Source of the DNA: Bacteriovoracaceae bacterium | GTDB taxonomy: Bacteria > Bdellovibrionota > Bacteriovoracia > Bacteriovoracales > Bacteriovoracaceae | Direction of reading: 5' to 3' | NCBI GenBank assembly: GCA_019752535.1 | Contig: JAIEMA010000021.1 | Coordinates: forward strand, 1-64,000 | Length of the DNA stretch: 64,000 nucleotides | Part shown: piece by piece, positions 9,404 to 10,236 of the stretch | Layout: every line of letters begins with the position of its first letter | Numbering within the stretch: the first letter of the stretch is position 1 | Notes under the pieces: generated by a model | The model's input: only the letters and a program-made list of their open reading frames with translations | The model's database searches: none | What the model was told of the DNA's origin: nothing | Made by a program: the position numbers and the translations under genes

Positions 9404-9658
9404 TTAGACTGCTTCAGCCCACATTTCTGAATCGGCCACAGCTTGTGGAGAGTGGATGTATTCCACGTACTCAGAGATATCAAGAATCTCATCTCTAAAA
9501 ATGGCCACTCGCCAGTTGGCTTCTTCTTGATTCATGTCTTTGGCTTTTCCATCAAGAATCTGAGTGCGAATCAACCATGAAAGGTCATCCCATTTCTCAT
9601 TAGCCTCGAGACGCAAAATTTTCTTATTCTTCATAAGGTAATAGTGTGGCTTGCCCAT
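9404..9658 (-). CDS. Small conserved-looking cytoplasmic protein, function unknown
   Basis: 84 residues, acidic, rich in Trp and Glu (WDDLSWLIRTQILDG, EEANWRVAIFRDEILDISEY), no signal peptide and no membrane segment. A perfect GGAGG sits seven bases before the ATG, so it is very probably translated. It converges on the small secreted protein gene with a shared terminator. The upstream side carries an inverted repeat GTCACA...TGTGAC (9719-9743) with a TATAAA box on this strand between the arms, which could be a promoter plus operator. No function can be assigned. Confidence 0.75.
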   Translation of the reverse strand: MGKPHYYLMKNKKILRLEANEKWDDLSWLIRTQILDGKAKDMNQEEANWRVAIFRDEILDISEYVEYIHSPQAVADSEMWAEAV

Positions 9659-9718
9659 GGTTCACCCTCCTGGTGGTTGGCGCACTTTTGATATCCTTCA
9701 ATAGTGCTTAATAAAAGG

Positions 9719-9743
9719 GTCACATACCTTTTATAGTTGTGAC
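9719..9743. promoter_or_regulatory. Inverted repeat GTCACA-N13-TGTGAC, possible operator
   Basis: Perfect 6-bp arms around 13 bases that contain ACTATAAAAGG when read on the minus strand, a plausible -10 for the 84-residue gene. The half-sites resemble CRP-type TGTGA but in inverted order, so the binding factor is unknown. Confidence 0.4.
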
Positions 9744-9772
9744 AAGTAGGTGTAAGCATTTTTCAGGCCAAG

Positions 9773-9796
9773 TCCGAGTGAATTAAATTACTCGGA
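9773..9796. promoter_or_regulatory. Inverted repeat TCCGAGT-N10-ACTCGGA, candidate enhancer site
   Basis: Perfect 7-bp arms separated by GAATTAAATT, itself nearly symmetric. It lies about 108 bp upstream of the sigma-54 -24 element at 9904, the usual distance for a bacterial enhancer-binding protein. The role is inferred from position only. Confidence 0.5.
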
Positions 9797-9903
9797 GTTA
9801 TAGGGGCTAGAATATTATTTTGGCCCTAGCAAATCGACACTGCCCCAGGGCCAGCTTGCCCCCAAGAGAAGGGGCGCCTACCAATCTTCATGAACTTACA
9901 ACT

Positions 9904-9918
9904 TGGCACGCTTCCTGC
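9904..9918 (+). promoter_or_regulatory. Sigma-54 (RpoN) promoter
   Basis: TGGCACGCTTCCTGC matches the -24/-12 consensus TGGCACG-N4-TTGC, with the diagnostic GG-N10-GC spacing exact. It reads rightward; the start point would be near 9930. Between 9659 and 10064 I see no credible protein gene, only this promoter, the inverted repeats, small hairpins such as GCCCC/GGGGC at about 9858-9875, and a leader with GGTTCA-AGGA-TGAACC near 10001-10016. Confidence 0.75.
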
Positions 9919-10064
9919 TTTACCTTATTCCAAGAACGGAGGGGTTGCTTAGGACGAGTGACACTTTCTAGAAACAAGCGGAAATGGATTTTCGCTTTTG
10001 GGTTCAAGGATGAACCAAATTTTTAAATCACAGCAGGATGCTAAACGGATGAAAGGAGATATCC

Positions 10065-10181
10065 ATGATCGCGCAAGAAACAACACTATTCTTCATACTG
10101 TCGGCTCTGCTTTTTGTGAACCTTCTGGTGCCTTATCTCTATCAAAAGAGGTCGGTTACGGTTCGCTCAAAAAAAGATTAA
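10065..10181 (+). CDS. 38-residue single-pass membrane peptide
   Basis: An ATG at 10065 stands seven bases after a near-perfect AAAGGAG and opens a 38-codon frame ending in TAA. The product begins MIAQETT, then has one strongly hydrophobic segment (LFFILSALLFVNLLVPYLY), then a basic tail QKRSVTVRSKKD: a small membrane peptide with a positively charged, probably cytoplasmic, C-terminus. It lies about 135 bp downstream of a predicted sigma-54 start. A 15-bp hairpin follows the gene. No family is recognised; membrane-complex subunit, membrane stress regulator or type I toxin-like peptide are all possible. Confidence 0.65.
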   Translation: MIAQETTLFFILSALLFVNLLVPYLYQKRSVTVRSKKD

Positions 10182-10202
10182 ACCCAATAAACTCAGCCCC
10201 CC

Positions 10203-10236
10203 GGAGGATTTAGAGTCTTAGGACTTTAAATCCTCC
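10203..10236. terminator. Long hairpin at 3' end of the micro-peptide gene and the M24 gene
   Basis: Arms GGAGGATTTAGAGTC and GACTTTAAATCCTCC pair over 15 bp with one G-T wobble around a TTAG loop. No T-run follows, so it may be an RNA-stabilising or attenuating structure rather than a classic terminator. It includes the last codons of the minus-strand M24 gene. Confidence 0.6.

Follow-up and report, generated by a model that had tools for sequence, protein, structure and literature searches.

What is made from a sigma-54 promoter that is followed by a structured leader and a reading frame of only 38 codons? This arrangement lies in a stretch of 64,000 nucleotides from a member of the Bacteriovoracaceae, here called the window. 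A preliminary description had read the locus as a regulated micro-protein gene or a dual mRNA/sRNA locus, maybe for membrane stress or a lifestyle switch, had pointed to an enhancer-like repeat, and had treated the peptide as the product of a lone micro-gene. Every sequence element that it named is in place. The promoter, the micropeptide and the dual-locus reading have held up; the enhancer repeat and the lone micro-gene have not. The architecture of CsrA-binding sites in the leader, which that description did not mention, would give the most likely mechanism. The locus probably produces a dual-function RNA, driven by sigma-54, that titrates CsrA and also encodes a CsrA-gated membrane micropeptide.

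Promoter and candidate upstream activator site

The promoter box TTGGCACGCTTCCTGCT (9903-9919, plus strand) has the exact GG-N10-GC spacing of a sigma-54 (-24/-12) promoter. It is the sole perfect match to the consensus TTGGCAYGNNNNYTGCW within the 64-kb window, where 0.78 matches would be expected by chance with one mismatch permitted. The box is kept in four of four congeners. It stands upstream of the 38-aa membrane peptide in each of the genus's five genomes, that of the window included; the distance from TGGCACG-N4-CTGC to the ORF is about 214 bp in each congener and 162 bp in the window. Among the 30 loci examined first, 29 carry a sigma-54-like box upstream of a conserved divergent gene. 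Some loci of more distant genera (L096, L102) have no such box beside this gene. The host genome encodes RpoN (PF04552, E=1.9e-60), and transcription is predicted to start near 9931.

A candidate activator site at a conserved distance, a further mark of a sigma-54 promoter, is found in the window and in the congener G001 and is weaker in others. A palindromic 17-bp motif, aGgGYCAnnnTGRCcCy, was trained on 60 upstream regions from outside the genus. Its best match in the window region is the enhancer-like dyad AGGGCCAGCTTGCCCCC (9847-9863, no strand assigned), 57 bp upstream of the box (P=0.001 against shuffles). The dyad has an identical offset in G001 (P=0.004) and is weaker in G002 and G003, and the motif scan gave no clear site in G004. 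The enhancer role had previously been given to the inverted repeat TCCGAGT/ACTCGGA, which does exist at 9773-9796. Its left arm is absent from the aligned region in four of four congeners, so this role is unsupported. The 9847-9863 dyad, whose motif also occurs in other genera, is the better enhancer candidate.

Structure of the leader RNA

The leader (about 9931-10064) contains eight GGA motifs, and its counterparts in the congeners contain eight to ten. A scan of both strands of the whole window for clusters of at least three AGGAHG motifs within 135 nt found the leader alone. The number of GGA motifs in the single leader is not significant against dinucleotide shuffles (P 0.06-0.14); it is the placement of GGA, rather than its count, that is significant. 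When 61 leaders from several genera are pooled, no trinucleotide is more frequent in the hairpin loops than GGA (129 against 35.4 expected), and the corresponding z-score of 18 overstates independence because the pooled leader sequences are related. GGA loops are carried by 29 different stems.

All hairpins of the window leader lie on the plus strand. Hairpin 1, gttgctt[AGGAC]gagtgac (9944-9962), hairpin 2, aagcggaaa[TGGA]ttttcgctt (9976-9997), and hairpin 4, agca[GGA]tgct (10032-10042), are supported by structure and by covariation within the genus. Hairpin 3, ggttca[AGGA]tgaacc (10001-10016), is the GGTTCA/TGAACC hairpin already noticed in the preliminary description. It recurs in four of four congeners, and an identical hairpin closes the first RNA of the genus g24. 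The Shine-Dalgarno sequence AAAGGAG lies within another GGA-type hairpin (gat...atc, 10048-10063), which in G003 and G001 reads GATAA[AGGAG]TTATC. The congeners' variants of one hairpin are gaatca[GGA]tgattc, gaaac[AGGAA]gtttc and agaca[GGA]tgtct. In the alignment with the congeners the box, several leader hairpins, the Shine-Dalgarno sequence and the ORF are all kept.

The stems covary. RNAalifold applied to five sequences from the genus found compensatory change in 11 of 35 pairs. In the leaders of g24, 32 cells changed on both sides, compared with 9.5 in shuffles (0/500), and this signal collapses in slid controls. The locus shares with the CsrB/Rsm RNAs the placing of multiple GGA motifs in the loops of hairpins whose stems covary. 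The leader has a CsrA-binding-type architecture, as in CsrB/RsmZ. Rfam holds no match for the leader RNA or for the related RNAs of the family.

The previously noticed 3' hairpin is present at 10203-10236 (plus strand). The window copy has no T-run, and the counterpart in G004 and G002 has another stem with a T-run and is terminator-like. Hairpin 3 was considered as a general terminator that would define a 95-nt sRNA, and this was rejected. G004 and G002 lack its U-run, and since the U-run is not conserved the hairpin is at most a lineage-specific terminator.

Membrane micropeptide

The ORF at 10065-10181 (plus strand) encodes a 38-aa single-span membrane peptide, MIAQETTLFFILSALLFVNLLVPYLYQKRSVTVRSKKD. 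This ORF and its AAAGGAG site, both proposed earlier, recur in four of four congeners and constitute a genuine micropeptide gene. Homologues were found in all four same-genus genomes searched, with 92% and 64% identity. The pN/pS ratio is 0.09 against G004, and the peptides of G003 and G001 are separated by 13 synonymous and 0 replacement differences. Purifying selection acts on the peptide, and both the promoter and the reading frame are conserved in the four congeners. Searches against known protein families gave sub-threshold matches only, and a profile search beyond the genus gave no convincing homologue by sequence. The genus g24 possesses a peptide family of its own.

CsrA and FliW in the host genome

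The host genome (3.49 Mb) has one csrA, a canonical one, in the gene order flgL-csrA-fliW. The gene beside csrA matches FliW in Pfam with E=4.5e-34. The host CsrA has L4, R6, R44 and N55, the last read from the sequence, and a C-terminal extension. N55 and the C-terminal extension are marks of FliW-regulated CsrA (PMC13407953). With csrA beside fliW, and with both marks in the protein, the host belongs to a lineage with FliW-type CsrA.

Proposed mechanism

The transcription start, RpoN dependence, CsrA binding, titration, translational control and the role of the peptide are all inferred from sequence. An activator would bind near 9847-9863 (motif RGGGYCANNNTGRCCCY) and switch on sigma-54-dependent transcription, and the RpoN-dependent RNA would start near 9931. 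The array of GGA-loop hairpins in the leader would bind CsrA dimers, and the transcribed RNA would pull CsrA off other mRNAs in the fashion of CsrB/RsmZ. Because the last GGA site covers the Shine-Dalgarno sequence, the peptide would be produced mostly at times when CsrA is scarce or saturated.

The same covered Shine-Dalgarno sequence would also fit a plain CsrA-repressed mRNA, in which the GGA hairpins only govern translation of the peptide, as happens in other leaders that CsrA controls through several sites, and CsrA is not titrated to a meaningful degree. A similar hairpin covers the Shine-Dalgarno sequence of the divergent gene. In many cases ordinary protein genes follow the family's sigma-54 leaders with AGGA hairpins, an arrangement that is as compatible with plain repression as with titration. 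Against this explanation, eight to ten GGA motifs would serve just 38 codons.

Related loci across the Bacteriovoracaceae

In g24 a longer structured RNA comes after the first box and closes with the window's GGTTCANGGANGAACC hairpin; in many genomes this first RNA is followed by a membrane peptide some 28-36 aa long. Additional tandem boxes lie 0.3-1.9 kb further along. Each has a short leader with GGA hairpins, and these units encode a second peptide family (MEMMxVLxGLMSMM...). In other genera, different membrane peptides of 38-50 aa stand behind GGA-hairpin leaders. Tandem units of sigma-54 box, RNA and peptide are thus common in the family, contrary to the idea of a lone micro-gene.

The RNA is also found without the peptide. 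The first RNA of g24 is kept without a membrane ORF after it in 8 of 22 loci, and two more are doubtful. Five Halobacteriovorax-like genomes (L174:563-870, L180, L181, L182, L213) have a stand-alone RNA of about 250 nt, predicted to be sigma-54-driven, that contains several GGA motifs, most of them in the loops of hairpins, as well as a terminator-like stem. It has no conserved ORF and no Rfam match. Since the RNA outlives the peptide and stand-alone relatives exist, plain repression, the main rival to titration, is weakened, and we consider it unlikely.

The RNA could also act by another route, by base pairing with targets or through another protein, with incidental GGA loops and with the peptide as either main product or by-product. 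The first RNA of g24 has a conserved element, GAGCGATGNGAGTCCAAGGTT...CCCATCC, that lies outside the GGA hairpins, and there is no Rfam family to guide assignment. Yet GGA exceeds all other loop trinucleotides and is kept while the stems change, in genera whose leaders are otherwise different, which makes such a route improbable. That the locus is a conventional sigma-54 gene encoding a small membrane peptide, its leader structure having no regulatory role, is close to the minimal reading of the preliminary description and would agree with the conserved box and with a conserved peptide under purifying selection, but it is very hard to reconcile with covarying leader hairpins and with relatives that retain the RNA without the peptide.

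A search for a box followed by AGGAHG motifs in 369 genomes of the phylum gave matches in 106 of the 129 family genomes, compared with 6 for the reversed control; some of these matches are sigma-54 genes of the usual sort, whose Shine-Dalgarno sequence is of the AGGA type. Pattern matches in f6/g84 appear to be of this kind, with a lone Shine-Dalgarno-like GGAGGATG after the sigma-54 box and no hairpin array, and for this reason they were not counted. The f6/g84 genomes (L215-L227) each have one conserved sigma-54 gene, with a leader hairpin resembling GGACCACT..TGTGGTC and the Shine-Dalgarno sequence ATCATGGAGGATG.

For the dual-function RNA preferred here, a wider proposal can be made, on which our judgement is evenly balanced. 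A family of sigma-54 CsrA sponges may have evolved in Bacteriovoracaceae with FliW-type CsrA. Many of these sponges would be fused to membrane micropeptides specific to their lineage and would form tandem units. One sigma-54 signal would then relieve CsrA repression and release the peptide, perhaps at a transition of the predatory life cycle.

Elsewhere in the family, many sigma-54 transcripts start with AGGA hairpins ahead of protein genes (L175, L176, L185, L191, L208 and others). The products of L175 and L176 resemble flagellar rod/hook proteins. These transcripts hint at a CsrA-controlled sigma-54 regulon.

Comparison with known systems

The hairpin loops of CsrB present CAGGA(U/A/C)G, and the SELEX consensus for CsrA is RUACARGGAUGU (PMC7652899). 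Like the locus, the CsrB/CsrC and RsmX/Y/Z RNAs of the Gammaproteobacteria have arrays of AGGA[U/A/C]G in loops on variable stems; CsrA titration is presumed here. The locus differs in that it encodes a peptide, resides in a host with FliW-type CsrA and has no Rfam match. CsrB/Rsm sRNAs are under GacA/UvrY control, whereas the locus has a sigma-54 promoter, and the leader's eight GGA motifs are a small number compared with the 22 in E. coli CsrB. While CsrB/Rsm RNAs are non-coding, the window copy contains a peptide ORF under purifying selection; some of the relatives' RNAs (g24 loci, the Halobacteriovorax-like RNA) appear to be non-coding. As the locus is coding and matches no described Rfam family, it is not filed in the CsrB family, and the binding of CsrA here is putative.

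The leader of the C. jejuni flaA mRNA is both a target and a titrator of CsrA in a FliW-CsrA organism (PMC4894983). In contrast to flaA, which encodes the abundant flagellin, the locus encodes a 38-aa membrane peptide from a sigma-54 promoter. Its leader has many more GGA sites, and some of its relatives are without an ORF. CrcZ and CrcY of the Pseudomonadaceae are RpoN-dependent decoy RNAs that sequester a global RNA-binding regulator (PMC4063720, PMC6292655). CrcZ sequesters Hfq through A-rich motifs, whereas the locus is proposed to sequester CsrA. CrcZ is not known to encode a peptide.

CsrA sponges have been described principally from the Gammaproteobacteria, and FliW-type lineages are described as lacking sponges and controlling CsrA by protein (PMC13407953). 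C. jejuni has no CsrA sponge RNAs (PMC4894983). With the marks of a sponge and a FliW-type CsrA in one lineage, it becomes possible to test how CsrA control evolved. A limited literature search did not turn up the combination of sigma-54 control, an array of CsrA hairpins, a membrane micropeptide and FliW-type CsrA. Because the same limited search found no study of CsrA or CsrA RNAs in Bdellovibrio-like predators, the locus offers a concrete handle on their post-transcriptional control. The locus family also supplies a set of unannotated membrane micropeptides.

The divergent gene

The conserved divergent gene (9404-9658, minus strand, 84 aa) anchors the locus across the family and was found in 43 of 129 family genomes. 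Its protein has no match in Pfam or NCBIfam, and its predicted fold (pLDDT 82) has no match in the PDB; it is an orphan family. A hairpin, CACC[AGGAG]GGTG (9663-9675, minus strand), lies over its Shine-Dalgarno sequence and is a candidate CsrA site. This hairpin is letter-identical in 18 of 37 named loci (L243-L279). Since the Shine-Dalgarno sequence of the divergent gene also lies in a hairpin, the peptide gene and the divergent gene may both respond to CsrA.

Between the two genes, the block GTGACAAGTAGGTGTAAGCATTTTTCAGGCCAA (9739-9771) is nearly invariant within the genus. Its minus strand reads TTGGCCTGAAAAATGC, a sigma-54-like GG-N10-GC arrangement that points at the divergent gene, and its plus strand contains TGTAAG, which resembles a GacA-box half-site.
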